Shown here: piece by piece, positions 20,292-51,194 of the stretch
Position numbering within the stretch: the stretch's first letter is position 1
Layout: every line of letters starts with the position of its first letter
Origin: Pseudactinotalea sp. HY158
Lineage (GTDB): Bacteria; Actinomycetota; Actinomycetes; Actinomycetales; Beutenbergiaceae
Assembly (NCBI RefSeq): GCF_009660225.1
Contig: NZ_CP045920.1
Location: 1,240,001-1,304,000, forward strand
Length of the DNA: 64,000 nucleotides
Reading direction: 5' to 3'
The notes under the pieces: model-generated
Told to the model about the DNA's origin: nothing
Seen by the model: only the letters and a program-made list of their open reading frames with translations
Databases searched by the model: none
Translations under genes and position numbers: made by a program

Positions 20292-20941
20292 TCACCTCCG
20301 ATGGTGGCTGATGACCCCATCATACTAGAACGTATGTTCGATAACAAGGGTCGAGAACAGATTCATCGCCCGGAGCTGACAGTGGGGTCGACGGCGGGTC
20401 GACGGCAGGGCCGACGGCGTCGACTCCGCCTGCTCCCGGCAGTCCCGAGCGTTCACGACCCTTGCCGCACGGACTGAACTCGACATGCCGACGCGGTCTG
20501 CACCATCACGGTGGCCACGTCGTGCCGACCGTGCTGCCCGTGCCGACTGTGATGCCCGCGCCGACTGTGCTGCCGTGCGGCCCGCGCCGGCCGTGCGGCC
20601 CGCGCCGGCCGTGCTGCCTGTGCTACCCGTGCTGCCCGCGCCAACCGCGCCAACCGCACCCGAGGCCTGTGGTGGGTGGTGGGACCTTCGATTGTCGTGC
20701 TCTGTATGGATCGTGCCGAGTCGTCAGATGTGAATTATCGAGGCTCGAATAGGTGAATTGGAGATTGCGTCTCCCACAATATTGGTATGAGTGCGGGGTG
20801 AGGTGAGGGTGAGATATGAAGTCGTCGAAATAATTGGTGGGTGAGGCCCCAGGACTGCGGCCTGATCGGCGTAGACTCCCATTCGCATCTTGCTCTGGCC
20901 CGTGGGTCGCGAGACCCGCCCAATGAATGGAGTGGATCGCG
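20292..20941. other. 650-bp intergenic region with GC-rich short repeats
   Basis: No convincing gene. Short open frames on the + strand at 20462-20752 have Cys/Pro/Arg-rich translations without a ribosome site and look spurious. About 20515-20660 is built from repeated GCCGTGCTGCC / CGCGCCGGCCGTG-like 12-15-bp units. The part from 20700 to 20935 is AT-richer and probably holds the promoter of the following secreted protein; the first ~50 bases hold that of the broken DUF222 gene, which reads away. Confidence 0.6.
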
Positions 20942-23900: not shown

Positions 23901-24565
23901 GCGGCGGTGACGGCGGCGGTGATGGTGATGGTGGGACGGGTACGGCGCCGCCGGCGGTGACGGGTCTGGTTGCTCCGATCGTGACGTCGGCCAAGACGGT
24001 GCTCAATTGGGAGTATTCGCCCGATGCCGGGATCGCTCGGATCATCGTGCGGGGCGCGGCCGGGCAGGTGGCGCCGGCGACGGTGACTGATGGGGTCGAG
24101 ATCGTGACGGGTCGGGCGTTGACGACTCATGCCACCGATGATTCGGGTTTGGCGCCGGGGCAGCGGTATTCGTATTCGGTGTTCACGCAGGCGAACTCGG
24201 GCGCGGTGAGTGAGGCGGCCTCGATTACGGTGCCGGTGGTGTTTCCGGGTGCGGTGACGGGGGTGACGGCGTCGGTCGATGGTGGCAGTCGGGTGGTGTT
24301 GGCCTGGGAGAATCCGGTCGATTCGCAGTTGAAGCGGATCACGGTGCGGCGGGTGGATGGGGCGGTGGCTCCGGCGACGATCGATGCGGGTCGCAAGATC
24401 CCGTTGGTGCAGGCTCAGGACGAGTCGGTGACCGATACCGGGCTTGCGGCCGGTAGGCAGTATTCGTATGCGGTCTTCGCCACCGACCGGGTGGGGAATG
24501 TGAGTCCGCTCGGGGCGGGCAGCACCGTCACCGTGACCACGCCGCCCGCAGCCCCGTCCCCGTGA
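20942..24565 (+). CDS. Secreted RCC1-repeat / fibronectin type III-like repeat protein
   Basis: A 1207-aa exported protein. Residues ~15-42 form the signal peptide (AVVLAVLASMLAAMLLVITP, then VSEAATP). Residues ~45-300 are about seven RCC1-like blades of ~39 residues with the pattern GTVVAWGDDxxGQAxVPAGL and FHSLAL; these should form a beta-propeller. From residue ~320 on come paired FN3-like domains joined by Gly/Ser/Asp linkers (PPGGGGDSGGG). There is no LPXTG motif or membrane anchor at the end (TVTTPPAAPSP). A role in adhesion or surface binding is likely but not demonstrated. ATG 20942 (MSRDLARP) is preferred over 20927. Confidence 0.85.
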   Translation: MSRDLARPVRRIVGLRAVVLAVLASMLAAMLLVITPQVSEAATPHTIVAWGRDTWGESDVPSGMSDIKQISGAAHSLALRENGTVVAWGDDEAGEADVPAGLSDVSAVAAGGFHSLALLGDGTVVAWGDDDHGQATVPAGLGGVTAISGGRYHSLALEGDGSVVAWGDDDDGQASVPAGLHDVVAIDGGGFHSLALESDGTVVAWGNNDYGQATVPAGLTGVVAIAAGWYHSMALLGDGSVVAWGRNDDGQASVPADLPPVAAISAGATHSTVALRDGTVRTWGDNSFNQQDIPPGITGVTQVTGKAMNSMVLADDPPPTPVVDLSAPIVSSTKVSLSWGYPTQPTDLDIARIIVRGAAGQVAPATATDGVEVPTGHPLQTYASDPGGLQPGQRYSYSVFVQDKAGNIGQPASITVPVVFPGAVTDVTASVDGSSRVVLAWQNPVDAQLKRITVRRVDGAVAPATIDAGRKVPLVQAQDESVTDTGLAAGMQYSYAVFATDRVGNVSPLGAGSTVTVTMPPLTVPPGGGGDSGGGGAGDGGGTGTAPPAVTGLVAPIVTSAKTVLNWEYSPDAGIARIIVRGAAGQVAPATVTDGVEIVTGRALTTHATDDSGLAPGQRYSYSVFTQANSGAVSEAASITVPVVFPGAVTGVTASVDGGSRVVLAWQNPVDAQLKRITVRRVDGAVAPATIDAGRKVPLVQAQDESVTDTGLAAGMQYSYAVFATDRVGNVSPLGAGSTVTVTMPPLTVPPGGGGDSGGGAGDGGGTGTAPPAVTGLVAPIVTSAKTVLNWEYSPDAGIARIIVRGAAGQVAPATVTDGVEIVTGRALTTHATDDSGLAPGQRYSYSVFTQANSGAVSEAASITVPVVFPGAVTGVTASVDGGSRVVLAWENPVDSQLKRITVRRVDGAVAPATIDEGRKIPLVQAQDESVTDTGLAAGRQYSYAVFATDRVGNVSPLGAGSTVTVTTPPLTVPPGGGGDSGGGDSGGGDGGGDGDGGTGTAPPAVTGLVAPIVTSAKTVLNWEYSPDAGIARIIVRGAAGQVAPATVTDGVEIVTGRALTTHATDDSGLAPGQRYSYSVFTQANSGAVSEAASITVPVVFPGAVTGVTASVDGGSRVVLAWENPVDSQLKRITVRRVDGAVAPATIDAGRKIPLVQAQDESVTDTGLAAGRQYSYAVFATDRVGNVSPLGAGSTVTVTTPPAAPSP
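22565..24565. repeat. Three near-identical ~0.67-kb tandem coding repeats
   Basis: The copies begin at about 22565, 23237 and 23933. The first two are offset by exactly 672 bp (224 codons); the third by 696 bp, because of a 24-bp longer Gly/Ser/Asp linker. The third copy stops at the gene end, before its linker. Differences are a handful of substitutions (for example AGAATCCGGTCGATGCG versus AGAATCCGGTCGATTCG). A diverged fourth unit precedes them (21900-22560). Such homology permits copy-number change by recombination. Confidence 0.92.
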
Positions 24566-24671: not shown

Positions 24672-25616
24672 TTATGCCGCATGTAATGCGTGAGTGTCAA
24701 GTTGGGGTCGTGTTTGCTCGCCCTTTTCGTGGGGTGTGAGTCCGCCGAGAGCGGAATGTGGGCGCCTGCGATTGTAGTAGGTTTCGATGTAGTCGAACAC
24801 TGCTGTTCGTAGCTTCGTGATCGATGGCCATGTGTGCAGGTGTATGAGTTCCTTCTTGAAGGTCGCGTTGAATGATTCTGCCATGGCGTTGTCGTAGCAT
24901 ATTCCGGTATGGCCCACGGAGGGGATGATGCCGTTGGCGAAGGCGAGGTTACGGAATTCGCTGGAGGTGTACTGGCTGCCGCGGTCGCTGTGTATCACGC
25001 ATTGTCCAATGGGTGGTCTGCGCCTGGTGATCGCATCCTTCAGCGCATCGGTGACCAGGCTGGTGCGCATGTGGCCGGCCAGGGCCTGCCCGACGACCTC
25101 GCGGGTGTGTCCGTCCAGGATCACGGCCAGGTAGGCCCACCCTGCCCAGGTGCGGATGTAGGTGATGTCGGTGTACCAGATCTCATCGGGCCCGTCCGGG
25201 ACGAAGTCGCGTTCGACGAGGTCGATCAGCCCGCCCTGGCGGCTCTTGTCGCGGATCGTGGTGGTCTTGTAGGGCCGTGGATGCACCGATTCCAGGCCGG
25301 CTGCCCGGGCCAGGCGTCGTACTCGCTTGGGTGAGTGGTGGTCCCCGGCCTTGGCGAGTTCGACGACCATGCGCTCGATCCCAAGGCGGCCCTCGTGGGC
25401 GCGGTGGAGGGCGACGATGTGCTGGCTGAGTTCTTCATCGGCCAGCTGGTGGGCCGAGGGTGTCCGCTTCTCCCACGCGTAGTAGCCGCCCCGGGAGACC
25501 TCCAACACCTCACACATCAGCGCAAGGGGGATCCGTTCATTGCGTGGTTTGCCAGACTGCTCGGCTGCGAGATCGCGAATGAACGCGAACCTCACATGCT
25601 CTCCTTCGCAAACCAC
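24672..25616 (-). CDS. IS3 family transposase OrfB (DDE integrase domain)
   Basis: 314 aa if read alone from GTG 25616; probably made as an OrfAB fusion. An HTH_21-like region (LALMCEVLEVSRGGYYAWEK) is followed by the rve catalytic core: IWYTDITYIRTWAGWAYLAV (first D), VIHSDRGSQYTS (second D) and AMAESFNATFKKELIH (E), ending with TYYNRRRPHSALGGLTPHE. All three catalytic residues are present, so the enzyme may be active. Confidence 0.93.
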   Translation of the reverse strand: MVCEGEHVRFAFIRDLAAEQSGKPRNERIPLALMCEVLEVSRGGYYAWEKRTPSAHQLADEELSQHIVALHRAHEGRLGIERMVVELAKAGDHHSPKRVRRLARAAGLESVHPRPYKTTTIRDKSRQGGLIDLVERDFVPDGPDEIWYTDITYIRTWAGWAYLAVILDGHTREVVGQALAGHMRTSLVTDALKDAITRRRPPIGQCVIHSDRGSQYTSSEFRNLAFANGIIPSVGHTGICYDNAMAESFNATFKKELIHLHTWPSITKLRTAVFDYIETYYNRRRPHSALGGLTPHEKGEQTRPQLDTHALHAA

Positions 25617-25888
25617 GCCGCGGCTTTTTTTAGTATCTCCCGTTCCATCTTCAGCCGGCGGTTCTCACCCCGCAGCTCCGTGAGCTCGGAACGCTCATCG
25701 ATCGTCAACGGCTTCTCGGTCAACTCGCCTCGCTTCTTCGCCAGATTCACCCAATTTCCTAACGTTCCCTCGTTGACTCCCAGGTCGCGAGCGATCTCGG
25801 CGATCGGGCGACCCGAGGTCACCACTAGCTCGACCGCCTCGGACTTAAACGAGTCCGTGTACTTCTTACGTGCTTCACCCATGATCAT
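25592..25888 (-). CDS. IS3 family transposase OrfA (helix-turn-helix)
   Basis: 98 aa. RKKYTDSFKSEAVELVVTSG, then IAEIARDLGVNEGTLGNWV, is the standard HTH_Tnp_1 domain; the leucine-rich tail ELTELRGENRRLKMEREILK is the OrfA zipper. The frame passes through an A7 run (CTAAAAAAAGCC, around 25623-25633). A -1 slip there enters the OrfB frame, as usual for programmed frameshifting in this family. Start at 25888 with a GAGGAGAAC ribosome site. Confidence 0.9.
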   Translation of the reverse strand: MIMGEARKKYTDSFKSEAVELVVTSGRPIAEIARDLGVNEGTLGNWVNLAKKRGELTEKPLTIDERSELTELRGENRRLKMEREILKKAAAWFAKESM

Positions 25889-25991
25889 GTTCTCCTCGTA
25901 AACCAGTATCCCAGCCGGGCGACTGTCTACCAAAGCGGGAGGGCTCCAGATCGCCACCTCGCCCCACTCCGGGGCCTGCTGGGGCATCCGG

Positions 25992-26669
25992 TTACTGTCG
26001 GGCCATTCTGATCACCAGGTTGAGACCGTTGTCCGGGTGATAGCTCCACTCGGCCCGAAAGTGCTCCCATTCGCCCTGCCGGCGCCCGTCGAGCGCTCGA
26101 GTCTGGCCGATATTGGTCTGCAGCCATGCGGGCGTGTCGAGGCTGACGTAGAGACATTCGAGCACGAACGTGCTCAGGCCGAGGGGGTCGTCGTCCTGAG
26201 GCAGTGTGTCGAGCACGAGGGTCGTGGCGTCGTCGTCGAGGGAGAGACGGCCGGCGAGGTACTCCTCCAGCGCATCCGGCCGGCGTGTGTGCGGGGAGTC
26301 CGTCTCGGTCGGCGTGGGCTCGTCGGCCCAGGCGGCCGAGACGACCGTGAGCGCGTTCGTGCCGTCGCATGTCTCGAAGGCCTCGGCCAGCGGATCGGGG
26401 GTGAGCATCGTCAGGCCCACGACGACGGTGCCGACGAGCACGGCCACAGCCCCGCCCGCGATGAGCGCGGTGCGTAGACCGCGGCGCGGCTTCGAGCCGG
26501 CGGGTATGGACGGAGGGTGGCCGGGTTCTCCGGGGAGGTCCGGCTCGTTCGAGCCGAAGCGTGTGGACGGCGGGTGGCCGGGTTCTCCGGGGTGGTCCGG
26601 CTCGTGCGGGTGGTCGTCCCGGGCGGCCGCCTCCGGACTGAAGGGCGCCGGCTCGTTCGGATTCGTCAT
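25992..26669 (-). CDS. Single-span membrane protein, unknown
   Basis: A 225-aa protein with a Pro/His/Glu-rich cytoplasmic head containing two copies of an EPDLPGEPGHPPS-like repeat, one membrane helix at about residues 62-83 (ALIAGGAVAVLVGTVVVGLT) and an extracellular acidic domain of ~140 residues (FETCDGTNALTVVSAAW, STFVLECLYVSL). The domain has two cysteines that may pair. No family is recognised. Start ATG 26669 (MTNPNEPAPF). The 3' end is 63 bp from the IS3 element. It probably forms a unit with the lipoprotein gene 10 bp upstream. Confidence 0.7.
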   Translation of the reverse strand: MTNPNEPAPFSPEAAARDDHPHEPDHPGEPGHPPSTRFGSNEPDLPGEPGHPPSIPAGSKPRRGLRTALIAGGAVAVLVGTVVVGLTMLTPDPLAEAFETCDGTNALTVVSAAWADEPTPTETDSPHTRRPDALEEYLAGRLSLDDDATTLVLDTLPQDDDPLGLSTFVLECLYVSLDTPAWLQTNIGQTRALDGRRQGEWEHFRAEWSYHPDNGLNLVIRMARQ

Positions 26670-26679
26670 CTGCCTCGCC

Positions 26680-27306
26680 TCATTCCGCCGCGAAGAAGGC
26701 CGGCTCGCCGTAGTCCGTGGCCACGGTCCAGAGGCCATCGGCGCCGGCGGGCACCTCGAGGCACACGTTCCCCTCGGCGACCCCGCCCTCGTACAGGTCG
26801 CCGACCTCGTCGAGATCGCCGGGGATGACTCCGCAGTAGCCGTCGTAGGTGCGGTTGTCGGAGCCGACGAATTTCACGTCGATGTCGAGCCAGGCCGTGC
26901 CCGTCTCGGCGCCCAGGTAGGTCGCCTCGAGCGGCACGATCCAGAACTCCATGCCCTCGGCGGGCGGGTCGTTGAATCGGTTCTCGGCCTTGATCTCCGT
27001 CCACGCCTCCCGCGGTGTGTCGAGCACGAGATCCCAGGTCTCGTTGCCCATGCTCGTGCCGATCGCGAACGGATTCGCGCGGCTGCCCTCGGGTTCGGGC
27101 TCCGGTGTCGGCTCGGGCTCCGGGCTCGGCGTGGCGGGGGCGGATGCCGGCTCGGTGGCCGGTTCGGACTGCCCCGCCTGCTCGTCGCCGTGGGCCTTCT
27201 GGCCGGTGCTCTCGTCGGCGGTGAGCGCCGCCCCGCATCCGGTCAGGCCGAGCATCGCCGCGGCAAGGACTGCCGCCGCCGGTCGCCTGGTCATGGCGCT
27301 TGTCAT
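26680..27306 (-). CDS. Lipoprotein with a DUF4352-like domain
   Basis: A 208-aa lipoprotein: the signal AAAVLAAAMLGLTGCGAAL has the lipobox L-T-G-C (cysteine ~23). A Pro/Glu-rich linker (SPEPEPTPEPEPEG) leads to a beta-sandwich domain (NPFAIGTSMGNETWDLVLDT, EGMEFWIVPLEATYLG, FVGSDNRTYDGYCGVIP) of the DUF4352/telomeric-repeat-factor-like type seen in actinobacterial exported proteins. The two cysteines in this part (YCGV and VCLEV) may form a disulfide. Start 27306 or the internal ATG at 27294. Function unknown. Confidence 0.75.
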   Translation of the reverse strand: MTSAMTRRPAAAVLAAAMLGLTGCGAALTADESTGQKAHGDEQAGQSEPATEPASAPATPSPEPEPTPEPEPEGSRANPFAIGTSMGNETWDLVLDTPREAWTEIKAENRFNDPPAEGMEFWIVPLEATYLGAETGTAWLDIDVKFVGSDNRTYDGYCGVIPGDLDEVGDLYEGGVAEGNVCLEVPAGADGLWTVATDYGEPAFFAAE

Positions 27307-27380: not shown

Positions 27381-27398
27381 CGATAAGTGGGCTTATCG
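27381..27398. promoter_or_regulatory. Palindromic operator candidate upstream of the restriction locus
   Basis: CGATAAG-TGGG-CTTATCG: perfect 7-bp arms with a 4-bp spacer, 70 bp before the HTH/pseudo-methylase start and in an otherwise AT-richer region between divergent genes. It could be an autoregulatory site for the HTH of the first protein; this is inference. Confidence 0.55.
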
Positions 27399-27467: not shown

Positions 27468-29621
27468 ATGAGCCCGCACCCGAGAAGGCAGCTGAGCCGG
27501 CACCGCCTCCTGGATGATCTGCGGGTCGGCCTCGCCGACATTGCGGAGGTCGCGGGCGTGCAGCGCCCCGTCGTCTCGGTGTGGCGCAGCCGCCATCCCG
27601 ACGGGCCGAACCGTTTTCCCCTCCCGTGCGAGCAGCGCGGGACTCGGCTCCTCTTCCGGGCGGGTGAGGTGGCCGACTGGATCGACCGCACCGGCCTCGG
27701 GAACAACCGCGAGTTCACCGCCGACGTCGTGGTCCGCGCGCTGCGGGGAAGCGTGGCGCCCGCGGAGCTCCACGTGATCACCGCCCTCGTGCGCCTGCGG
27801 GCCGCATCGGGTGGGCCGCTCGCCGGATGCGACGTCGAGGCGCTCCTCGACCTGGCCGACGACGCCGACCCGCACGACCGCGACAGCTATCGCGAGCTCG
27901 AGGCCGCGGCCGCCGTTCCTGCTCGTCTCGAGCACCTCGCCTCCCTCGCCGACGAGGTGGTCGACTCCGCCTACTCCGCGGGCGCCGCCATCGACCGGCT
28001 CCTGCCGGCCCTCGTCCCTGCGGACGACGCGCTCGCCCCCGCGGCCCTCGACCTGCTCGCCCGCCTCGCGCTGACGCTGAGCCCGGGTGGGCCGCTCGTC
28101 GTGGCCGATCCCGAACCCGGCGCCGGGGACGTACTCGCGGCCGTGCTCTCCCACGAGGAGCACCTCGACCGGGCCCGCGCCGTGCTCCCGGAGCCGGCCG
28201 GCGCCCCCCCGACCATCGACCACCCGCCCGGCGACCGCCCTGCCGACGACCGCCCGACCACCGACCACCCGACCACCGCGCGGTCGGGCCCCGGCGCGGG
28301 CACCCTCGCGAGGCTCGCCCGACGGCGCCTGCTCGCCCACGGATGGCAGGTGACCCATTCCGACATGGCGAGTGGATTCGCCGCGGGGGCGATCGTCGTC
28401 ACCACGCTCTCGCGCTGGGTTGAGCGGGGTGAGCGGGGCGAGCGGGGCGATGCGGGCGTGCTCGAACGGATCGACGAGATCGCGGTGCGGCTCGCGCCGG
28501 GGCAACGGGCAGTCGTGCTCGGCCCGGCGCGGGTGCTCATCGACGAGGCCGGCCCCGAGGTGGAGTCGATCCGTTCCGACCTGCTGCGCACCGACAAGGT
28601 GCGGGCGGCGGTGCTCCTGCCGGCCGGATTGGTGCCGTCGCGATCCCGGGAGCGGCTCGCCCTGTGGGTGCTCGGCGACGCCCATCCCGAGGTGCCGATC
28701 GGCGGGCGGTGGATCATGGTCGCCGACGCCTCCGTGCAGCCGCTGCGCCGCGGGCGACTGCCGGCCGGTCTCGTGGACGACCTCCTCACCGACGTGCTCG
28801 CCGCGATGGGAACGAGCGCCGAGGTCCGCGCGCACGCGTTCCGCTTCGCCCGGTTCGCCCACACCTCGCGCATCCTCGCCGAGCGGGCCGGCCTGCTCGC
28901 CACGTCCCGGCCGCTCCAGCGCGCGATCAGGGACGACGCAGCCGCGCCCGCGCGCGTGCGCGAGCTCTCCCGTGCCCTCGCCGACGTGCCGGCGGCCACG
29001 GTCGACCTGGCCGTCCGGGCCGGGGACCCGGTCGCGGTGCGGCGCTTCACGCTCGGGGAACTCATCGACCGGCGGGCACTGCGCCGCCTGCCCGGGAACC
29101 GGATCGAGGGCCTCGCGCGGCCGGCGACCGGAGCGAGCGGGGAGGTGCGGGTGATCGGCCCGGCCGAGGTGACCGGCGAGGGCGGGCCGCGAGCGGTCGA
29201 CCGGATGGAACTGATCGCCCGCCACCCGGGGAGCCGGTTGACCGAGCCGGGCGACGTCGTCTTCACGAGTGCCCCGCGCCCGGCCGCGATCGTGGATCGC
29301 GCCGGCCTGAGCCTCGTGGCCTACCCGGCCCAGGTGCTGCGGGTGCGCGACCACGCGGTCGGCCTCGTGCCCGCCCTGATCGCCGCCGACATTCGGCGCG
29401 CCGAACGGGGCACCCGCCGGCGCGATTGGGCGCTCCGGCTCGTGCCGCCGGAGCAGGCGGCGCAGACCGCCGCGGCGCTCGCCCGTATCGAGGAGGCGCA
29501 GGCGGCCGCCCGCGAGTCGCTGCGGCTGCTGCAGGAGCTGACCACCGAGGTGACGGCGGGCGTGAGCGCCGGTGTCGTACGTCTGGTGGATGATGAATCC
29601 GACCACCCCGAGCAGGAATGA
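27468..29621 (+). CDS. HTH domain fused to degenerate N6-adenine methylase and HsdS-like C terminus
   Basis: A 717-aa protein, first gene of the restriction row. Residues ~10-75 are a MerR/HTH-like reader (LADIAEVAGVQRPVVSVWRS then a wing with LLFRAGEVADWIDRTG). Residues ~130-470 follow the HsdM/N6_Mtase fold, with motif I as VVADPEPGAGDVLAAVL (~residue 211). The place expected for motif IV (N-P-P-F/Y), about residue 310, instead reads GAIVVTTLSRWVERG. Later strands match well (GQRAVVLGPARVLIDEAG, VRAAVLLPAGLV, RLALWVLGDAHPE). Residues ~520-700 resemble half an S subunit ending in a helical stretch (ARIEEAQAAARESLRLLQEL). A sensor/regulator or DNA-binding pseudo-enzyme is likely. Start ATG 27468 behind GGAGAGAGGGGG. 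Six bases separate it from hsdM. Confidence 0.7.
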   Translation: MSPHPRRQLSRHRLLDDLRVGLADIAEVAGVQRPVVSVWRSRHPDGPNRFPLPCEQRGTRLLFRAGEVADWIDRTGLGNNREFTADVVVRALRGSVAPAELHVITALVRLRAASGGPLAGCDVEALLDLADDADPHDRDSYRELEAAAAVPARLEHLASLADEVVDSAYSAGAAIDRLLPALVPADDALAPAALDLLARLALTLSPGGPLVVADPEPGAGDVLAAVLSHEEHLDRARAVLPEPAGAPPTIDHPPGDRPADDRPTTDHPTTARSGPGAGTLARLARRRLLAHGWQVTHSDMASGFAAGAIVVTTLSRWVERGERGERGDAGVLERIDEIAVRLAPGQRAVVLGPARVLIDEAGPEVESIRSDLLRTDKVRAAVLLPAGLVPSRSRERLALWVLGDAHPEVPIGGRWIMVADASVQPLRRGRLPAGLVDDLLTDVLAAMGTSAEVRAHAFRFARFAHTSRILAERAGLLATSRPLQRAIRDDAAAPARVRELSRALADVPAATVDLAVRAGDPVAVRRFTLGELIDRRALRRLPGNRIEGLARPATGASGEVRVIGPAEVTGEGGPRAVDRMELIARHPGSRLTEPGDVVFTSAPRPAAIVDRAGLSLVAYPAQVLRVRDHAVGLVPALIAADIRRAERGTRRRDWALRLVPPEQAAQTAAALARIEEAQAAARESLRLLQELTTEVTAGVSAGVVRLVDDESDHPEQE

Positions 29622-29627: not shown

Positions 29628-31328
29628 GTGCCGCCACGTAAGAAGCAGGCCGCCGTACCGAGCGAGAGTGTCGGTGCAGCCACCACGATGAAGGAACTGA
29701 AGGACACGCTGTGGAAGGCCGCCGACAAGCTGCGGGGGTCGATGGACGCGAGCCAGTACAAGGACGTGATCCTCGGGCTCGTGTTCCTCAAGTACGTGTC
29801 GGATGCGTTCACGGAGCGGCGCCGAGAGCTCGGCGAGGAGCTCGCCGCCGACGGCTTCACCGAGGAGCAGCGGGTGCTCATGGAGGAGGACGTCGACGAG
29901 TACCGCTCGGAGGGCGTGTTCTGGGTTCCGAAGCGGGCGCGGTGGGAGTACCTCGCGGCGCACGCCAAGGGCAGGGTCGCCACCGAGGTCGAGTCCGAGG
30001 CCTCGATCGGGCAGCTCGTGGACGAGGCGATGGAGCAGCTCATGGGCGCGAACGTCGCGCTGCACGCCACGCTGCCCACGATCTTCAACCGGGACGGGGT
30101 GGATCAGCGCCGGCTCGGGGAGCTGATCGACCTGTTCCACGCGGCGCGCTTCTCCGGGGTGGGGGCGCGGAAGGCGCGCGACGTGCTCGGCGAGGTGTAC
30201 GAGTACTTCCTCGGGCGCTTCGCCGCGGCCGAGGGCAAGCGGGGCGGGGAGTTCTACACACCGCCGGACGTGGTGCGGGTGCTCGTGGACGTGCTCGAGC
30301 CGTTCCAGGGGCGCGTGTACGACCCGTGCTGCGGTTCGGGCGGCATGTTCGTGCAGGCGGAGAAGTTCCTCGAGCGGCACGACGCCGACCGGCAGGCGAT
30401 CAGCGTGTACGGGCAGGAGCTGAATCAGGGCACGTGGCGGATGGCGAGGATGAACCTCGCCGTGCACGGGCTCACCGGGAACCTCGGGCCGCGGTGGGGT
30501 GACACGTTCGCCCGCGACCTGCACCCGGACGTACCGATGGACTTCGTGCTCGCGAACCCGCCGTTCAACATCAAGGACTGGGCGCGCTCGGCCGAGGATG
30601 CCCGCTGGACCTACGGCGTGCCGCCGGCGAATAACGCGAACTACGCGTGGATCCAGCACATCCTGAGCAAGCTCGCCCCGGACGGGTCGGCCGGCGTGGT
30701 AATGGCCAACGGGTCGATGTCGAGCAACAGTGGGGGAGAGGGGCAGATCCGGGCGAACCTCGTGGAGGCGGACCTGGTCAGCTGTCTCGTGGCGCTGCCC
30801 ACCCAGCTGTTCCGCTCGACCGGGATCCCCGTGTGCGTGTGGTTCTTCGCGAAGGACAAGTCCGCTGGGCACGCCGGGCAGTCCGGGGGCGGTGACGCGG
30901 CCGGTGATGCGGCCGGTGACGAGGGGAGCGGCGTCGGCGCGGCCACGGACCGGCGCGGCCAGGTGCTCTTCATCGACGCCCGCGACCTCGGCCACATGGT
31001 CGACCGGGCCGAGCGGGAGCTGGGCGAGGAGGACATCGCCAAGATCGCCGGCACCTTCCACGCCTGGCGGGGCAGCGCCTCCGCGCGCGACGCCGGCCTC
31101 GAATACGAGGACGAGCCGGGCTTCTGCTACTCGGCCACGCTCGCCGAGATCAAGGACGCCGACTACTCCCTCACCCCCGGGCGCTACGTCGGCGCCCCGC
31201 CCGAGGAGGACGACGGCGAGCCCATCGAGCAGAAGATCGAGCGGCTCACCGGAGAGCTGTTCGCCCAGTTCGAGGAGTCGGCCCGACTCGAGCAGGTCGT
31301 GCGCGAGCAGCTGGGGCGTGTGCGGTGA
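29628..31328 (+). CDS. hsdM: Type I restriction-modification DNA methyltransferase subunit
   Basis: A 566-aa N6-adenine methyltransferase. The N-terminal HsdM domain (LKDTLWKAADKLRGSMDASQ, VILGLVFLKYVSDAF) is followed by the methylase core: GGEFYTPPDVVRVLVDVLEP, motif I DPCCGSGGMFVQ (~residue 232) and motif IV ANPPFNIKDW (N310). A Gly/Ala/Asp-rich insert (HAGQSGGGDAAGDAAGDEG) near residue 425 precedes VLFIDARDLGHMVDR. It needs HsdS for specificity and forms the M2S methylase; with HsdR it restricts unmodified DNA. The start is GTG 29628 (VPPRKKQA). The stop overlaps the hsdS start. Confidence 0.95.
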   Translation: MPPRKKQAAVPSESVGAATTMKELKDTLWKAADKLRGSMDASQYKDVILGLVFLKYVSDAFTERRRELGEELAADGFTEEQRVLMEEDVDEYRSEGVFWVPKRARWEYLAAHAKGRVATEVESEASIGQLVDEAMEQLMGANVALHATLPTIFNRDGVDQRRLGELIDLFHAARFSGVGARKARDVLGEVYEYFLGRFAAAEGKRGGEFYTPPDVVRVLVDVLEPFQGRVYDPCCGSGGMFVQAEKFLERHDADRQAISVYGQELNQGTWRMARMNLAVHGLTGNLGPRWGDTFARDLHPDVPMDFVLANPPFNIKDWARSAEDARWTYGVPPANNANYAWIQHILSKLAPDGSAGVVMANGSMSSNSGGEGQIRANLVEADLVSCLVALPTQLFRSTGIPVCVWFFAKDKSAGHAGQSGGGDAAGDAAGDEGSGVGAATDRRGQVLFIDARDLGHMVDRAERELGEEDIAKIAGTFHAWRGSASARDAGLEYEDEPGFCYSATLAEIKDADYSLTPGRYVGAPPEEDDGEPIEQKIERLTGELFAQFEESARLEQVVREQLGRVR

Positions 31329-32491
31329 CGAGCGATCACATTTCTACCCGACGTATCGCTGACTTCGCGGAGATTTTCGATGGTCCACACGCAACGCCGA
31401 ATCGGCGGGCCAGCGGCCCCTACTTCCTCAATATTTCAAGTCTGTTGAATGGCCGTCTCGACCTTTCACGGTCGGACCGCGTCGATGAGGTGGACTTTAA
31501 GCGATGGACAAGGCGCGTCACCCCACGTGAAGGTGACCTCCTCTTCTCTTATGAGACCAGACTAGGCGAAGCAGCCCTCATGCCAGCCGGTACTCGGGCC
31601 TGCCTCGGTCGCCGCATGGCCCTGCTACGCCTGACGGCCGACGACGTGTGTCCCCGATACTTGCTCTATAAGTGGCTCTCTCCCGAAGTGAAGAACTTGA
31701 TCCATCGGCACGTCATTCATGGAGCCACGGTCAACCGGATCGCGCTGAGCACATTGGGGGAGTGGCGCCTTCACCTTCCGTCACTACCTGAGCAGGAGGC
31801 AGTCGCCAACGTCCTTGGCGCGCTCGACGACAAAATCGAGGTCAATCGCAGGCTCGCCGCCACGGCGGATGAACTTGCAACTGCTGTCGTCCGATCCCTT
31901 CCAGCAAGCGACTGGGTCCGGCTTGCTGACGTTGCTGACGTGACGATGGGGAGTTCTCCCAAGGGGGAGAGGTTGAACGAAGACGGTGAAGGGCTTCCCT
32001 TCTACCAGGGGATACGAGATTTCGGACTTCGCTATCCGTCTCGTCGAGTCTTCACGACCGCTCCCATTCGACATGCCGCGGCTGGTGACGTACTCGTAAG
32101 TGTTCGAGCGCCCGTGGGGACCTTGAACTTGGCCAGCGAGGAGATGTGCATTGGCCGTGGGGTTGCGTCACTTCGGCCCCAGGATCGCAGGCCATACCTG
32201 CTATTCCATCTGCTGCGAGGAATTCCCGAGGTATGGGCGAAGTATAATGCGGGTGGCACCGTCTTCGGTTCGATCAACAGGTCCCAGTTGGAGGACCTTG
32301 AAGTGCCAAGGCCCGCTGGCGTAGTCGCAGAGCAGTTCGAGTCTCGACTGCGTTCGCTGGAGGGAACTCTCGCGGCAGCGGTCGCCGAGACCCACACTCT
32401 CGGCACACTCCGCGACACGCTCCTGCCGAAGCTCATGTCGGGTGACCTGCGGGTCCGGGAGGCCGAGGCGGCCGTGGCGGAGGCCGTATGA
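31325..32491 (+). CDS. hsdS: Type I restriction-modification specificity subunit
   Basis: A 388-aa protein with two target-recognition domains (residues ~1-160 and ~195-345) separated by conserved helical spacers: LPSLPEQEAVANVLGALDDK (~155-175) and, at the end, RSLEGTLAAAVAETHTLGTL with RDTLLPKLMSGDLRV. Each TRD binds one half of a bipartite site; the site itself cannot be read from sequence. It starts at GTG 31325 in a 4-bp overlap with hsdM. The DNA is visibly richer in A/T than its neighbours, particularly 31330-32300, consistent with exchange of recognition domains by horizontal transfer. Confidence 0.94.
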   Translation: MTSDHISTRRIADFAEIFDGPHATPNRRASGPYFLNISSLLNGRLDLSRSDRVDEVDFKRWTRRVTPREGDLLFSYETRLGEAALMPAGTRACLGRRMALLRLTADDVCPRYLLYKWLSPEVKNLIHRHVIHGATVNRIALSTLGEWRLHLPSLPEQEAVANVLGALDDKIEVNRRLAATADELATAVVRSLPASDWVRLADVADVTMGSSPKGERLNEDGEGLPFYQGIRDFGLRYPSRRVFTTAPIRHAAAGDVLVSVRAPVGTLNLASEEMCIGRGVASLRPQDRRPYLLFHLLRGIPEVWAKYNAGGTVFGSINRSQLEDLEVPRPAGVVAEQFESRLRSLEGTLAAAVAETHTLGTLRDTLLPKLMSGDLRVREAEAAVAEAV

Positions 32492-32563
32492 ATCGATTCC
32501 CACCCCGTGGAGGGGACCAGCGTCCATTGCGTGGCGCCTCACGACTCTTCTGAACGGAGCATC

Positions 32564-33157
32564 ATGACGACACCGTCGCCGAACCCGATCCCACCCGAAT
32601 CCGTGTCCCCGAACCCGATGCGCCCATACGAGAGCGCTCACGCACCCTCGGACTACGGAAGCCCGCAGGCGCCGGTCCAGCCGCCGGGGCAGTCTCCAGC
32701 GGCAAGCACTCCCGCGGCCCCGAAGATCAGAGTCGGCACGAGCGCTGCTGCGGCGCGCATCCGTCTCGTTTGGGCGGCCGTCATGCTTCTGGCGTTGGCG
32801 CCGGTCTACTTCAACACGGCCCCCGAGGCTCCGAACGCGCTGGCGGTCAACGGCTGGGAATCGCAGCAGCTCATGGCGAGCACGCGTAACGACCTGAACA
32901 ACGAGAACACCCAGGGCGCGCCGCAGCAGAGCGTCGTGAACGGGTGGTACGCGAACGACCTCCTCGACCTGCAGGTCACCCAGGCAGGCGGCCTCTACGA
33001 AGTCCAGCTCTATGAGGCGGCCGTGACCCGGCGAAACGGTGACCTGCTCGCTCTGCTCGGCCTCGCCGTCCTCGGTGACCTCCTGATCCAGGCCGCCGGA
33101 CGAAGTGGTCGGGGCGGGCGCCGAGAATCGACAACCGCGACGGCAGCGGAGTCATGA
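32564..33157 (+). CDS. Proline-rich membrane protein in the restriction row
   Basis: A 197-aa protein. Residues 1-60 are Pro/Ser/Ala-rich and disordered (SPNPIPPESVSPNPMRP). A helix at ~68-86 (IRLVWAAVMLLALAPVYF) leads to a mainly polar, probably extracytoplasmic stretch of ~75 residues (NGWESQQLMASTRNDLNNEN, VVNGWYANDLLDLQ). A second hydrophobic helix sits at ~165-182 (LLALLGLAVLGDLLIQAA). No family is recognised. It lies 72 bp after hsdS and 1 bp before the ArdC-like gene, so it is probably co-transcribed with both. Confidence 0.65.
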   Translation: MTTPSPNPIPPESVSPNPMRPYESAHAPSDYGSPQAPVQPPGQSPAASTPAAPKIRVGTSAAAARIRLVWAAVMLLALAPVYFNTAPEAPNALAVNGWESQQLMASTRNDLNNENTQGAPQQSVVNGWYANDLLDLQVTQAGGLYEVQLYEAAVTRRNGDLLALLGLAVLGDLLIQAAGRSGRGGRRESTTATAAES

Positions 33158-33158
33158 C

Positions 33159-34235
33159 ATGGCCACCACGAACTCGACCTCCACGCCATTCGACCTGAGG
33201 GCGAGCGAGCCCGAACAAGCGAGCCTCTTCGACGGGGACGTCGACTTCGACGTCGATCGCCCGGAGCCCGCGCCTCCCGCGGGCGCGCGCCGCGATGTCG
33301 ACGTCGAGGATGCGCGGAAGTCGATCGATGCACTGATCCACAGCGCCGGGAACTACGGCGGCCCGCAGGAGTATCGGGAGCTTCTCCGGTTCGTCTCCCG
33401 GCTACCGGAGTACCGCCCGTTCAACCGGATGCTGATCCACGTGCAGAAGCCGGGCGCCGAGTACGTCGCGACCGCGAACCGGTGGTTGCGCACATTCAAG
33501 CGGACGATCCGGCCCGGAGTGCGACCGCTCGTCATCCTCCAGCCGAGGGGCCCGGTCCGAGTGGTCTTCGACGTGGACGACACCGAACCCCTCGTGGACG
33601 ACGCGCCACCCGTGCCCCGGAGCGCGGTCCGGCCCCTCGAAATCCAGCTCGACGGCACCGTGGCCCAGATCGACGACCGATGGCGCTACACCGAACTGAA
33701 CGCGATCCGCGACGGCATCCGGATCACCCTCGTGGACCACGGCGGGCACTCCGGCGGGAGGATCCGGAAGACACCGAACTCGACGATCCGGCTCTCCCGG
33801 CCCGCAACCGGCAGAACGCCGGACGGCCTGCCGCAGGTCGAGTACTTCCCGTTGCGGTACGAACTCGAGATCAACCGGAACCTCAGCCCGACGGACCGTT
33901 ACGCCACCCTGATCCACGAACTAGCCCACCTCTACTGCGGACACCTCGGCTCGCCGGACACAGACCATTGGCCCGATCGTTCACAGCCGATCCTGGACCA
34001 CGCGACCCGCGAGATCGAGGCGGAATCCGTCGTCCATATGCTTCTCGCCCGGATCGACCCGGACGTGCGCATGGGCGATTACATCCAGGGCCACCTCGAC
34101 AAGACGAAGCAGGTGCCGCCGTCCGTCAGCCTCAACGCGATGATGCGGTGCGCCGGACTCATCGAGGAGATGGGAGAGCACCGCATGCCGAGGCGACGAT
34201 CCCGGCCTACACCGACCACATCGACCACACGATGA
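33159..34235 (+). CDS. ArdC-like protein with zinc metallopeptidase motif
   Basis: A 358-aa protein. Residues ~65-135 (YRELLRFVSRLPEYRPFNRM, YVATANRWLRTFKRTIRPGV) resemble the N-terminal ArdC/DUF1738-type region. Residues 235-330 form a zincin domain with LIHELAHLYCGH (H253, E254, H257) and the downstream acidic ligand candidate in REIEAESVVHMLL. ArdC proteins are plasmid antirestriction factors with ssDNA-binding and peptidase-like parts. Finding one next to hsdMS suggests modulation of restriction or a separate defence effector; this is inference. Start ATG 33159, 1 bp after the previous stop. The last ~20 residues are Arg/Thr/Pro-rich and may be unstructured. Confidence 0.72.
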   Translation: MATTNSTSTPFDLRASEPEQASLFDGDVDFDVDRPEPAPPAGARRDVDVEDARKSIDALIHSAGNYGGPQEYRELLRFVSRLPEYRPFNRMLIHVQKPGAEYVATANRWLRTFKRTIRPGVRPLVILQPRGPVRVVFDVDDTEPLVDDAPPVPRSAVRPLEIQLDGTVAQIDDRWRYTELNAIRDGIRITLVDHGGHSGGRIRKTPNSTIRLSRPATGRTPDGLPQVEYFPLRYELEINRNLSPTDRYATLIHELAHLYCGHLGSPDTDHWPDRSQPILDHATREIEAESVVHMLLARIDPDVRMGDYIQGHLDKTKQVPPSVSLNAMMRCAGLIEEMGEHRMPRRRSRPTPTTSTTR

Positions 34236-34278
34236 CGGCTCTCGGACGTGCGCGGGCGGGCGCGGCTACGATGGCTCA

Positions 34279-35334: not shown

Positions 35335-35407
35335 CGTCGCGAGGCGCCCCCGCCGGCGCTCTCAGTCCAGGAGTGCTTCGGCCACCAACCGCGCCGGCGC
35401 TCTCCGC

Positions 35408-36640: not shown

Positions 36641-36650
36641 GAGATCAGTT

Positions 36651-36679
36651 TACTTACACTTAAGGGACAAGCGTAAGTA
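36651..36679. promoter_or_regulatory. Inverted repeat in the fic promoter
   Basis: TACTTAC (36651-36657) and GTAAGTA (36673-36679) are perfect 7-bp arms separated by 15 bp, starting 11 bp upstream of the fic start codon. The position fits autoregulation by the winged-helix end of the Fic protein. Confidence 0.45.
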
Positions 36680-36815
36680 TGTCGATCCTGTACTTCCAGT
36701 TCGCGCGCGACGCCTCGACCATCGGAGCGGCCGGGCGCGGCTCCTGGAGTGACGTTCCGATACGGACCGGGACGTCGGCCCCCAGGCCCGCGGGTCGTCC
36801 TGCGGTCCGCAGGCG

Positions 36816-47688: not shown

Positions 47689-47814
47689 ATGCCCGCGATC
47701 TTCGAGTTCTCCTTCGAGGCCGTCGGACCTCGCGCATGGCACGCCGCCGTCGTGACCGTTGACGAGCATGCGGCCCGCCCGCACCGCCGGGTGTGCCAGA
47801 GGGCCGATCAGTAG
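47689..47814 (+). CDS. Small open frame, 41 aa, uncertain
   Basis: ATG 47689 sits 8 bp after TGGAGGA and encodes MPAIFEFSFEAVGPRAWHAA followed by VVTVDEHAARPHRRVC. The first half has a plausible beta-strand pattern, the second half looks random. It could be a small protein or the head of a truncated gene. It precedes hsdR by ~100 bp. Confidence 0.3.
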   Translation: MPAIFEFSFEAVGPRAWHAAVVTVDEHAARPHRRVCQRADQ

Positions 47815-47912
47815 GGTTATCGCCTCCAGGCGATCGAGCGCGATCACTTGCTGCCATGCTGCCCTGGGCGGCGCCGATAGGCTCGCCCACAACCGGAAGC
47901 GATGGAGGCACC

Positions 47913-50900
47913 GTGCGGGAATCCGACTGGGAACAGCTCGCGCTCGAGCGGCTCGCCGAGGAGCACCTCGGCTGGCAGCCGCTCTCCGGGCGTGAGATCG
48001 CGCCCGGGGCGAGCAGCGCCGTCGGTCATCCCGGCTACGCGGCCCTCGGCGCACAGTCGCAGCGCGAGTCGTGGGCCGAGCTCGCGATCCCGTCGCGGCT
48101 GCGGTCGGCGCTGCGGCGGCTCAACCCCGAGGTTCCCCGCCAGTACCTCGACCAGGCCGCCGCCGAGATCCTGCGCGCCACCTCGGCCGATGCGATCGCC
48201 GAGAACGAGCGGATCCACCGCTACCTCACCGACGGCTACCGCCTCACCTATATCGACGAGGGCCGAGAACGCTCGCCCTCGATCCGGCTCACCGGAGCCG
48301 CGCCGGGGCAGAACGAATGGCTCGCAGTCAACCAGGTCACGGTGATCTCGGGCGAGGTCGAGCGCCGGTTCGACCTCGTGCTCTACCTCAACGGGATGCC
48401 CGTGGTCGTGATGGAGCTGAAGAACGCGAGTGCCGGCGACGACATCGCCACCGCGCAGGCCCAGATCGCCACCTACGTGCGGGAGCTGCCGAGCGCCTTC
48501 CGGTTCTGCGTGCTCACGGTGGTCTCCGACGGTGTGACCGCCCGCTACGGCACCCCGTTCACCCCGCTCGAGCACTACGCCCCGTGGAACGTCGACGCGA
48601 CCGGCGCGGTTGTCGCCCCCGGCGGCCCGCCCGATGCGAGCGAGGGCCTCGACGGACCGCAGCAACCACTCCTGCTCGATCTCGATGTCGACCGGGACAC
48701 CGCCCTCGACGTGCTGATCGACGGACTCTTCGACCACGCCCGATTCCTCCAGCTCATGCGGTCCTTCGTCGCCTTCGACTCCGGCGAGGACGGCCTGACC
48801 AAGCGCATCGCCAAGGCCCACCAGTACTTCGCGGTGACCAAGGCGGTCGAGGCCACCGTGGCCGCCGTCGCCGGTGACGGCCGGGCCGGCGTCGTGTGGC
48901 ACACACAGGGCTCGGGCAAGTCGATGGAGATGGAGCTGTACGCCGCGCTCGTCGCCCGCCGTCCCGAACTCGAGAACCCGACGATCGTCGTGGTGACCGA
49001 CCGCACCGAGCTCGACGGCCAGCTGTACGCGACGTTCGCCCGCTCCCAGCTGCTGCCCGAGCAGCCGCGCCAGGTGCGGCGTCGCTCCGAGTTGCGCGAG
49101 GCCCTCAGTTCCCGGCGCACCGGCGGCATCTACTTCACCACCCTGCAGAAATTCGGTCTCACCCATGAGGAGCGGGACGCCGGCGCCGCCCATCCGATGC
49201 TCTCCGAACGTTCGAATATCCTCCTCATCGTCGACGAGGCGCACCGCAGCCACTACGACAACCTCGACGGCTACGCCTGGCACCTGAAGAACGCACTGCC
49301 GAACGCGACCCTACTCGCCTTCACCGGCACCCCGATCGACACCGCCGACCGGAACACCCGCGAGGTCTTCGGGGACGTCATCGACACCTACGACCTCACC
49401 CGCGCGGTCGAGGACGGCGCCACCGTGCCCGTCTACTTCGAGTCGCGGCTCGTCAAGGTCGGCCTCGCCGAGGACGTGACCGCCGAGGAGATCGACGCGA
49501 CCGCCGACGAGGTCACGACCGGGCTCGACGACGCCGAACGCGAGCGCCTCGAACGCTCCGTCGCCGTGATCAACGCCGTCTACGGCGCCCCCACCCGCAT
49601 GCGCGAACTCGCGGCCGACCTCGTGACCCACTGGGAGGCGCGACGTGACGCCGTTGCGGAACTGGTGCGGGCGTCGTCCACAAGCGAGGGAGCACCCGGC
49701 AAGGGCCTCATCGTGGCCGCCACCCGCGAGATCTGCGCGCGGCTCTACGAGCAGATCGTCACGCTGCGCCCGGACTGGCACCACGACGACCTCGACCGGG
49801 GCCGCATCAAGGTGGTCTACTCCGGCACGCCCGCCGACGCGCCGCCGATCTCCGAGCACGTGCGCCGCGAGTCCCAGAACGACGTGATCAAGCGGCGCCT
49901 CAAGGATCCGGACGACGAACTCGAGCTCGTGATCGTCAAGGACATGATGCTCACCGGCTTCGACGCGCCGCCGCTGCACACCCTCTACCTCGACCGGCCG
50001 ATGCGCGGGGCGCTGCTCATGCAGACCCTCGCCCGGGTCAACCGCACCTTCCGCGGCAAGAACGCCGGGCTGCTCGTGGCGTACGCACCGATCGCCGAGA
50101 ACCTGCGGGACGCGCTCGCCGAGTACACCGAGCGCGACCGGGACTCCCGGCCGGTCGGGCGCACGGTCGAGGACGCCGCGGGGCTCGCACGGGCGCTCGT
50201 GCTGCAGCTGCGCGACCTGCTCGGCGGCTCCGACTGGCGCGCCCAGCTCGAGCGGGTGGGCGTCGACGGGCGCGGCTACGCGAGCGCCGCACTCCAGGTC
50301 GTCGATTGGCTGCGCAGCCCGCGCACCCCGGGCAACCAGGTGCCCGCGGGGCAGGAGACCCGCCAGGAGCGGTTCCGCCGGCTCGCCGGGCGGCTCACCC
50401 GGGCGTGGGCGCTGTGCGGCCGGAGCGAGGGCCTGGCCGAACTCGCGACCGAGGCCCGCTTCTACGAGGAGGTGCGCGTGTGGATGGGCAAGGTCGACGC
50501 CGAGGACCGGCACGCGCGCGGTGAGCCGATTCCGGACGACGTCGCTCGCCTTCTCGCCGATCTCGCCGCCCGCTCCTTCACCTCGGGCGAGGTGCTCGAC
50601 GTCTACGAGGCCGCCGGCCTCGGCGTGCAGCGCATCGATCAGCTCGACGCCACGTTCCTCGCCGGTGCCCAGCGAAGCGCCACCCCGCAGGTGACGATCG
50701 AACTGCTCCGGGCGCTGATCGAACGCGAGAGCCGGGCGGCCACCCGCGGGAACACGATCCGGGCGCGGGCCTTCTCCGATCGGCTCGAGGCGATCATGGT
50801 GCGCTACACGAACTCGAACCTCACCTCGGCGGAGGTCATCGCCGAACTCGTGCAGGTGGCGAACGAGGTGCGCGCCGAGAAGGACCGCGGCCGGCTCTTC

Positions 50901-51194
50901 GACCCGCCCCTGAACCCGGACGAGCTCGCGTTCTTCGATGCGGTGGCCACGAACGACGCGGCCCTGGAGCTGCAGGGGGAGGGGGTGCTGGCCCAGATCG
51001 CCCGCGAACTCGTGCGGATCATGCGCCGGGACGTGAAGACGGACTGGGCGGTGCGCGACGACGTCCGCGCGACCCTGCGGCGCAACGTCAAGCGGCTGCT
51101 CATCAAGTACGACTATCCGCCGGACCGGCGCGAGGACGCCGTGGTCGTCGTGCTCGAGCAGATGGAGGCCCAGGCCCGGCGCCGGGCGGCGTGA
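47913..51194 (+). CDS. hsdR: Type I restriction endonuclease subunit R
   Basis: A 1093-aa motor-nuclease. The PD-(D/E)xK nuclease is near residues 140-175 (RRFDLVLYLNGMPVVVMELK, D...E-x-K). The translocase follows: Walker A WHTQGSGKS (~331), DEAHRS (motif II, ~440), FTGTPI (motif III), VIVKDMMLTGFDAP (motif V) and QTLARVNRTF (motif VI), then a long helical C-terminal part that contacts the methylase. The start GTG 47913 gives MRESDWEQLALE, normal for the family. Its hsdM and hsdS lie ~15.4 kb upstream on the same strand; no other M/S pair is in the window. Confidence 0.94.
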   Translation: MRESDWEQLALERLAEEHLGWQPLSGREIAPGASSAVGHPGYAALGAQSQRESWAELAIPSRLRSALRRLNPEVPRQYLDQAAAEILRATSADAIAENERIHRYLTDGYRLTYIDEGRERSPSIRLTGAAPGQNEWLAVNQVTVISGEVERRFDLVLYLNGMPVVVMELKNASAGDDIATAQAQIATYVRELPSAFRFCVLTVVSDGVTARYGTPFTPLEHYAPWNVDATGAVVAPGGPPDASEGLDGPQQPLLLDLDVDRDTALDVLIDGLFDHARFLQLMRSFVAFDSGEDGLTKRIAKAHQYFAVTKAVEATVAAVAGDGRAGVVWHTQGSGKSMEMELYAALVARRPELENPTIVVVTDRTELDGQLYATFARSQLLPEQPRQVRRRSELREALSSRRTGGIYFTTLQKFGLTHEERDAGAAHPMLSERSNILLIVDEAHRSHYDNLDGYAWHLKNALPNATLLAFTGTPIDTADRNTREVFGDVIDTYDLTRAVEDGATVPVYFESRLVKVGLAEDVTAEEIDATADEVTTGLDDAERERLERSVAVINAVYGAPTRMRELAADLVTHWEARRDAVAELVRASSTSEGAPGKGLIVAATREICARLYEQIVTLRPDWHHDDLDRGRIKVVYSGTPADAPPISEHVRRESQNDVIKRRLKDPDDELELVIVKDMMLTGFDAPPLHTLYLDRPMRGALLMQTLARVNRTFRGKNAGLLVAYAPIAENLRDALAEYTERDRDSRPVGRTVEDAAGLARALVLQLRDLLGGSDWRAQLERVGVDGRGYASAALQVVDWLRSPRTPGNQVPAGQETRQERFRRLAGRLTRAWALCGRSEGLAELATEARFYEEVRVWMGKVDAEDRHARGEPIPDDVARLLADLAARSFTSGEVLDVYEAAGLGVQRIDQLDATFLAGAQRSATPQVTIELLRALIERESRAATRGNTIRARAFSDRLEAIMVRYTNSNLTSAEVIAELVQVANEVRAEKDRGRLFDPPLNPDELAFFDAVATNDAALELQGEGVLAQIARELVRIMRRDVKTDWAVRDDVRATLRRNVKRLLIKYDYPPDRREDAVVVVLEQMEAQARRRAA

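Follow-up and report, generated by a model that had tools for sequence, protein, structure and literature searches.

In the window analysed here, the whole stretch of 64,000 nucleotides from Pseudactinotalea sp. HY158 (NZ_CP045920.1, positions 1,240,001 to 1,304,000), the gene at 27468-29621 encodes a 717-residue protein, called X below, which stands directly upstream of the hsdM and hsdS genes of a type I restriction-modification (RM) system. We propose, with a rough probability of 0.84, that X serves this restriction system as a dedicated transcription controller, derived from a methyltransferase (MTase) of the M-S½ kind, that is a modification domain joined to half a specificity subunit, that would have lost its catalysis. 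The proposal is carried by the architecture of X, the loss of its catalytic motif IV, a conserved operator upstream of its gene, copies of this operator at some hsdR genes, the covariation of operator and helix-turn-helix (HTH) in a few lineages, and the loss of X together with hsdR. The parts of X are as follows, in window coordinates.

27468..29621, plus strand: X, an HTH, an apparently catalytically dead HsdM body and half an S subunit, 717 aa (open reading frame (ORF), model, fold searches and alignments)
27519..27713, plus strand: HTH with wing, approximately residues 18-82 (AlphaFold2 model)
Within the HTH, plus strand: recognition helix, about residues 31-40 (VQRPVVSVWR), from the model; residues 32 and 35 vary with operator type
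27714..28082, plus strand: HsdM_N-like helical domain, residues 83-205; most VIA alignments to HsdM begin at 80-90
28083..28913, plus strand: MTase-like Rossmann body, residues 206-482 (model, superposition)
28104..28130, plus strand: motif I remnant ADPEPGAGD, residues 213-221 (alignments)
28395..28418, plus strand: place of motif IV, VVTTLSRW, residues 310-317, with T-L-S-R for the N-P-P-F of HsdM (alignments)
29040..29567, plus strand: half S subunit, one target recognition domain (TRD) and one conserved-region (CR) helix, residues 525-700 (model, fold searches)

The ORF starts with ATG, directly preceded by GAGAGAGGGGG. An initial annotation made from the letters alone had described an HsdM fold with an HTH in front and half an S subunit behind, and all three parts were recovered in the AlphaFold2 model, which was built from 39 sequences (pLDDT 86.5). 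The HTH comprises helices at 22-29 and 33-42 and strands at 55-64; its profile support is weak, with Pfam HTH_17 found in 2 of 39 homologues (E <= 0.01) and PADLOC PDC-M06B at 0.006. HsdM is matched in superposition by residues 86-482, its N-terminal helical domain being part of the match (3khk_A, VIA Z 23.8, 4.4 Å over 334 residues), and so is a second HsdM structure at Z 23.6 (3lkd_A). The best Foldseek match is 7eew_A (E 7e-15, spanning X 88-707), which the title of its PDB entry presents as an intact MTase of Vibrio vulnificus. Residues 444-635 of 7eew align to the C-terminal part of X, in agreement with an M-S½ build, and such a build (M body, one TRD and CR helix) is present in X. When folded alone, the 213 residues 505-717 reached a pLDDT of 93.4 and matched the TRD and CR helix of HsdS (1yf2_A Z 10.8, 7eew_A Z 10.2), and Esub1 (8vsr_B) was also matched by the C-terminal part at Z 11.3. 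The 7eew protein, from V. vulnificus YJ016, is presumably an M-S½ fusion that forms a dimer. Profile scans gave no N6_Mtase match at the curated Pfam cut-off and no other convincing Pfam or NCBIfam match for the X of the window, Pfam N6_Mtase reached E <= 0.01 in 2 of 39 X homologues, and the family is named by none of Pfam, NCBIfam and PADLOC. MADS profiles showed a weak, general MTase/HTH similarity (at E <= 0.01, mad2 matched 6 and mad1 matched 1 of 39 homologues, and neither matched the X of the window).

X was then compared across genomes together with the genes of the restriction system, which in the window are the following.

29628..31328, plus strand: hsdM of the active type, with NPPF (Pfam N6_Mtase 1.3e-106, HsdM_N 5.6e-27)
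31325..32491, plus strand: hsdS with two TRD stretches (Pfam Methylase_S, 2 stretches)
47913..51194, plus strand: hsdR (Pfam HSDR_N, SWI2_SNF2, T1RH-like_C; longest ORF from 47793)

A scan of genome_contigs with the single protein returned no relatives, and a scan with an alignment gave 210 stretches, the best 80 of which were fetched. Of the 81 loci used below, 80 were retrieved with a peptide motif that matches the recognition helix of the HTH, the upstream palindrome described below not being a search criterion. In 78 of the 80 genome_contigs loci hsdM lies directly 3' of X, the exceptions being a locus at a contig end (L088) and one with a truncated X (L114). Of 149 near relatives, 15 have X, a count that includes the genome of the window and one match limited to the HTH (G042). 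A phylum-wide draw of 346 genomes yielded X in at least 4, one of them that of the window and one partial; this is a lower bound because only three candidates were scored per genome. X also occurs, annotated as a hypothetical protein, on five plasmid records, four of them typed conjugative, and the order X, hsdM, hsdS, hsdR is the same in all five, with X and hsdM in several annotated pieces in one. One scan of viral contigs found no relative of X. The architecture of X and its gene order are common to many actinobacterial families.

The initial annotation had also stated that the catalytic NPPF/Y motif is lost and reads TTLSRW, and that motif I is kept. Motif IV was placed with MAFFT, in two modes, on 19 sequences (3 HsdM, 5 bridging HTH-MTase relatives and 11 X), and in both modes VVTTLSRW of X sits on FVLANPPF of HsdM and VADPEPGAGDVL of X on motif I. 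In the model, this place of motif IV comes after the strand 309-313. A direct hhalign comparison of X with HsdM, which was weak (E 0.08) and is superseded by the bridged alignment, gave the same motif I but put ANPPF about six residues earlier, on AAGAI, where there is likewise no motif. The loss is therefore confirmed for the window, and it is shared by the homologues: at the first place of NPPF none of the 81 aligned X proteins has N, 63 have Q, and the others have H, T, A, R and further residues. The third place is still P in 75 of 81, and this P is lost in the X of the window. For motif I the claim holds in part, as the sequences align there and the two glycine places are G in only 46 and 44 of the 81 proteins.

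One could imagine that X is nevertheless an active or slow methyltransferase with an unusual motif IV, since motif I is partly kept and related actinobacterial HTH-MTases carry DPPF, HPPA, DPPT, DAPF or ETPF. We consider this very improbable, given that the catalytic place is never N or D (81 of 81), that the X of the window lacks the third-place P as well, and that an HsdM with NPPF is encoded next door. An MTase with its catalytic motif at another position was ruled out, as no [ND]PP[FYW] occurs anywhere in X in any of the 81 homologues. That the motif is gone might alternatively indicate a decaying gene born from a chance fusion. Such decay, to which we give next to no credence, is refuted by the constancy of architecture and gene order across many actinobacterial families and by a dN/dS far below 1, which for the MTase part was about 0.10-0.28 in 12 of 12 pairs, some of them not independent of each other. 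Since no X among the 81 has the N, while NPPF is present in every partner HsdM that was found (79 of 79 loci) and dN/dS is low, the loss of motif IV must be old and the body under selection. By its sequence, X is an inactive methylase and a kept family rather than a decaying one.

The evidence for a controller role begins upstream of the gene, with the following site.

27382..27397, no strand assigned: operator GATAA-GTGGGC-TTATC, 70 nt before the start codon of X

The palindrome YGATAA-N6-TTATCR was found 5' of X in all 81 loci, 75 times exactly and six times with one mismatch (in L101 the HTH lies outside the called ORF), and random order-1 Markov upstreams give a chance expectation of 0.007 per 81. 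Conservation near the operator is limited to the -10 regions. In the genome of the window (G000, 3.65 Mb) the site at 27382-27397 is the single exact copy. The 40 X genomes from whole-genome searches, which overlap in part with the 81 loci, represent a fairer sample; there, an exact palindrome lies beside X in 29 genomes, and in the other 11 the site deviates by one or two mismatches or is a symmetrical variant. Nine loci of this hsdM clade that are without X, and seven sister loci, show no palindrome in the stretches that were fetched, even when one mismatch is allowed. Taken with the copies at some hsdR genes and the covariation with the HTH, these sequence patterns give strong computational support to the earlier suggestion that X may bind DNA and regulate its locus.

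Variation of the operator points to the HTH as its reader. Both half-sites are changed together to GTTAA-N6-TTAAC in three genomes (G623, G333, G358) and to GTTTA-N6-TAAAC in a fourth (G651), and in the X proteins of these four, residue 32 of the recognition helix is S or T and residue 35 is A, whereas the relatives of the GATAA type, near ones included (G308, G417, L040), have Q, K or R at 32 and V at 35. Because operator variants go with residues 32 and 35, the HTH probably reads the operator, and would do so as a symmetrical dimer; this covariation stems from few lineages and perhaps two or three events. It might instead be the half-S domains of an X dimer that read the palindrome as a bipartite, type I-like site. 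The half-S fold is present, the site is bipartite, symmetrical and of type I length, and half-S dimers are able to read symmetrical spaced sites, as described for EcoR124INT, whose half-S dimer reads GAAN7TTC (PMC3320862). We regard this as improbable, however, since in the four variant loci the operator changes accompany residues 32 and 35 of the HTH, and since at the largest distances conservation is highest for the HTH (46-48% against 36-37%), a difference that arises partly by construction, as does the invariance of the HTH in the alignment, because the loci were found by a pattern in that very helix. The code cannot simply be extended to the HTH-MTase relatives mentioned above, as the fetched stretches of six of them have no shared upstream palindrome, nor one of the GATAA or GTTAA type when a single mismatch is tolerated.

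Further copies of the operator link X to hsdR. A matrix built from the X promoters was scanned over 1.7 Mb and gave 112 sites scoring at least 8, of which 81 are the X promoters themselves; 28 others score at least 9. Ten of the 28 lie at the start of hsdR, 12 are located 3.4-6 kb beyond the start of the hsdR ORF, and six are elsewhere, one of which precedes an RmuC gene (L105). Sites at the hsdR start were found in 10 of 31 loci with a detached hsdR versus 0 of 37 with an adjacent one, a count that includes three loci with sites 168-281 nt inside the longest hsdR ORF (L052, L086, L104); the preset span gave 7 of 31. In these three the true start of hsdR is probably further down, as in the window, where the likelier start is the GTG at 47913, preceded by GGAGG, and where the second site, one of the ten, lies.

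47806..47821, no strand assigned: operator-like site GATCA-GTAGGG-TTATC with one mismatch, 91 nt before the probable hsdR start

Ten of the 12 sites beyond hsdR were inspected, and an ORF of 825-967 aa comes next in eight of them; in L111 the ORF meets the end of the stretch and in L123 it is short. Four of the ORFs behind such sites were scanned and are RecF/SMC-like AAA ATPases. This ATPase gene may be a further defence gene that shares the control. The inspected sites are given here by locus and position.

Operators beyond hsdR, Streptomyces and relatives: L098 18753, L100 18419, L103 19539, L109 18522, L111 20974
Operators beyond hsdR, Streptomyces and relatives, continued: L115 17272, L116 19259, L121 18438, L123 18664, L126 18443

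The initial annotation had also raised the idea that X guides complexes to DNA without methylating. In a table of identities covering 75 of the 81 loci, the 181 pairs whose HsdM are 90-100% identical have half-S parts of X that are 78% identical, whereas their two HsdS TRDs average 22%. Since the half-S is conserved while the HsdS domains are swapped, X does not track the targets of the enzyme, and a role as specificity guide is not supported and was rejected on the strength of this comparison. From these sequence data, X goes with hsdM and hsdR and not with the swapped specificities. The tie to hsdR was examined in the 73 genomes with an HsdM match at E <= 1e-100, from which two were excluded (G170 and G203, 80% and 84% complete, with HsdM matches at contig edges). 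Leaving aside the 22 genomes of the sister clade, X and hsdR occur together in 39 genomes, X without hsdR in one, hsdR without X in one, and neither in eight; the sole genome with X and no hsdR, G052, is a fragmented assembly in which X is split over two contigs. Among the nine genomes whose HsdM belongs to the X clade and which are without X, eight are thus also without hsdR, and in two (G226, G418) only a C-terminal scrap of X is left. On an HsdM tree of 34 of the 75 loci, thinned at 88% identity, and 18 others, X was lost about five times, four of them together with hsdR; this tree was quickly made, leaves some forks open and contains one very long branch (L173). This co-loss argues that the importance of X in this clade lies in restriction rather than in methylation, while other type I systems manage without it.

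X and hsdR are both lost and hsdM is kept, mostly with hsdS, in L158, L169, L170 and L171 (family f22) and in L159, L160, L166 and L167. In G578 an ORF that by eye resembles a Mug-type uracil-DNA glycosylase (L175 9795-10313, minus strand) stands at the place of X upstream of hsdM.

Several observations weigh against a controller of the kind proposed. Having been retrieved through a motif of the recognition helix, the sampled loci favour one helix type, that of the GATAA members; in L036 a GATAA-like site goes with L at residue 35, and a fifth operator variant, GATAG in G264, does not inform the covariation. Of 33 genomes without X, 10 also contain exact palindromes at some place (15 sites), and three of the 10 belong to the part of the hsdM clade that is without X (G314, G331, G578), so the palindrome also arises by chance or for other reasons and alone is no proof. 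The site at hsdR in the window scores 13.6, below every X-promoter site (minimum 17.7), and at 21 of the 31 detached hsdR genes this matrix finds no site. Moreover, G578 keeps hsdR and has lost X and the operator, and in the sister hsdM clade 21 of 22 genomes without a full X have an hsdR match, so that X is not indispensable for restriction. Finally, a controller has no obvious need for a methylase body of 640 residues.

The co-loss would also suit a structural fourth subunit, which would join HsdM and HsdR and license or restrain restriction, autoregulation being secondary. The M body or the half-S helix would offer a route for such joining, the whole M-S½ body is under purifying selection, and hsdR was lost along with X in four of the five losses. 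Nevertheless, the half-S is conserved independently of HsdS, sister systems with hsdR function without X, and a dedicated operator with HTH covariation indicates control at the level of DNA. We therefore hold a primary structural role to be rather unlikely, bearing in mind that the roles of subunit and controller are compatible with each other.

As for the sign of the control that X is proposed to exert, a TAnnnT lies 28-38 nt after the operator in 75 of the 81 loci, mostly at 32-34 (control spans gave 1 and 8), and a mirrored TAnnnT was found on the divergent side in 41 of 81. A -35 hexamer is barely detectable, with a mean match of 2.4 of 6 versus 2.3 in controls. Activation is favoured because the operator is centred near -52, outside the core promoter and at a fixed distance to the -10. 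Against an activator speak a slight excess of -35-like matches (at least 4 of 6 in 12% versus 5%), the fact that actinobacterial promoters often do without a -35, and the promoter of the window, which has CACGAT instead of TAnnnT at the -10 place. A repressor, bound at about -52, might keep RNA polymerase off both divergent promoters until infection or a new host lifts the block. Many HTH proteins that control their own genes act as repressors. The closest type I precedent, RptR, represses its defence island, to judge from passages of its description (PMC12255303). Contact with the polymerase is the better fit for an operator that lies upstream of the core promoter, in most cases at 32-34 nt to the -10, and there is little sign of a -35. 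Given a controller role, we thus lean towards activation on the strength of promoter geometry, with repression as a serious though less probable alternative.

The following scheme would account for these data. An M-S½ methyltransferase would have lost catalysis and become the controller X, of which a homodimer, held by its M/S½ body, would bind YGATAA-N6-TTATCR through the winged HTH. The bound site would lie between the X-hsdM-hsdS promoter and the divergent gene, with a copy before the detached hsdR in some loci. Sitting at a fixed distance upstream of the -10, with hardly any -35, X would most likely activate transcription, and a self-reinforcing loop, similar to that of C proteins, might thereby link restriction to modification. 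More tentatively, the dead M-S½ body might be a sensor of stoichiometry, pairing with free HsdM or with S-adenosylmethionine and thereby altering the hold of the HTH on the operator. If this rather doubtful idea were true, the level of the working methylase would be read before hsdR is expressed, a dead copy of the enzyme being both gauge and switch.

Compared with the M-S½ MTase 7eew, X has the same HsdM body, TRD and CR helix in one chain, but it adds an N-terminal HTH, has lost motif IV and adjoins a complete hsdM-hsdS (and hsdR). C proteins of type II systems are small proteins that consist of an HTH alone; they have their operator sites in front of their own genes and both activate and repress their promoter directly, a kind of control on which, for X, the promoter geometry bears. 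Autoregulation, an operator before the own gene and control of the restriction gene are the logic that X, as far as its sequence tells, would share with them, whereas C proteins come from small genes of type II systems and X is a large type I pseudo-enzyme (PMC3978073, matched passages). The same source describes M.SsoII, in the part concerned, as an HTH-methyltransferase that controls RM genes from a 15-bp quasi-palindrome to which it binds (PMC3978073). X likewise combines an HTH and a methyltransferase fold with a palindrome before its gene, but M.SsoII is an active C5 MTase and itself the modification enzyme, while X has the N6 (HsdM) fold, is apparently inactive and is separate from the working HsdM. 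RptR, reported in 2025, is a small repressor of type I RM in gammaproteobacteria that uses 6-bp TAGCTA repeats, as stated in passages of that report (PMC12255303). Both are dedicated regulators in a type I RM locus, conserved with a palindromic site, X differing by its 717 residues of methylase origin, its spaced palindrome of 16 bp, its occurrence in Actinomycetota and its probably activating sign. In its working X would resemble these controllers, but it belongs to none of them, being an HsdM-type pseudo-enzyme with half an S subunit.

Actinobacterial HTH-N6_Mtase proteins (L042, L176-L179, L181) have the same type of HTH, and some have S-like ends. Unlike X, five of the six have a clear Pfam N6_Mtase match (L176 a weak one) and other forms of motif IV, and PDLC03037 is the best PADLOC match in the four that were scanned. 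Motif IV is altered (DAPF, DPPF, HPPA, DPPT, ETPF) in L176, L177, L178, L179 and L042. Judging from these sequences, the enzymes of several HTH-MTase lineages may have moved towards inactivity or change.

Among the matches listed from the open-licence PMC literature, no description of an X-like controller was found, and in a review of type I enzymes (PMC3874165) no such protein is mentioned in 12 of the 16 matched passages, those that were covered. The avoidance of killing a new host by type I systems has so far been explained mainly by proteolysis of HsdR, with RptR in addition, according to the relevant passages of the RptR report (PMC12255303). If our proposal is true, X would be a second and different kind of type I controller, present in many actinobacterial families and on conjugative plasmids, and an example of a restriction-modification enzyme that lost its activity and was put to new use as a transcription factor. 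It predicts the operator, a specificity code of the HTH in residues 32 and 35, and hsdR and the RecF/SMC-like ATPase gene as extra targets.

The surroundings of the system in the window contain the following genes.

26680..27306, minus strand: divergent gene across the operator, with a lipoprotein-like N-terminus; related opposite-strand ORFs in part of the loci
25992-26738, minus strand: single-span membrane-like protein, also divergent from X
33105-34235: IrrE-like peptidase between hsdS and hsdR (PADLOC RT_III-A match, 6e-23)
35408-36640, minus strand: Fic protein between hsdS and hsdR

The divergent gene forms no single conserved family across the loci; both divergent genes, 26680-27306 and 25992-26738, may belong to the system and are possibly co-controlled. 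On the other side, hsdR lies 15 kb beyond hsdS (32492-47792 between), and a glycogen debranching enzyme and sugar-uptake genes also separate the two. By eye, a large protein with RCC1-like and fibronectin-like repeats (20927-24565, plus strand) and an IS3-type transposase pair (24672-25987, minus strand) are encoded just before the locus.

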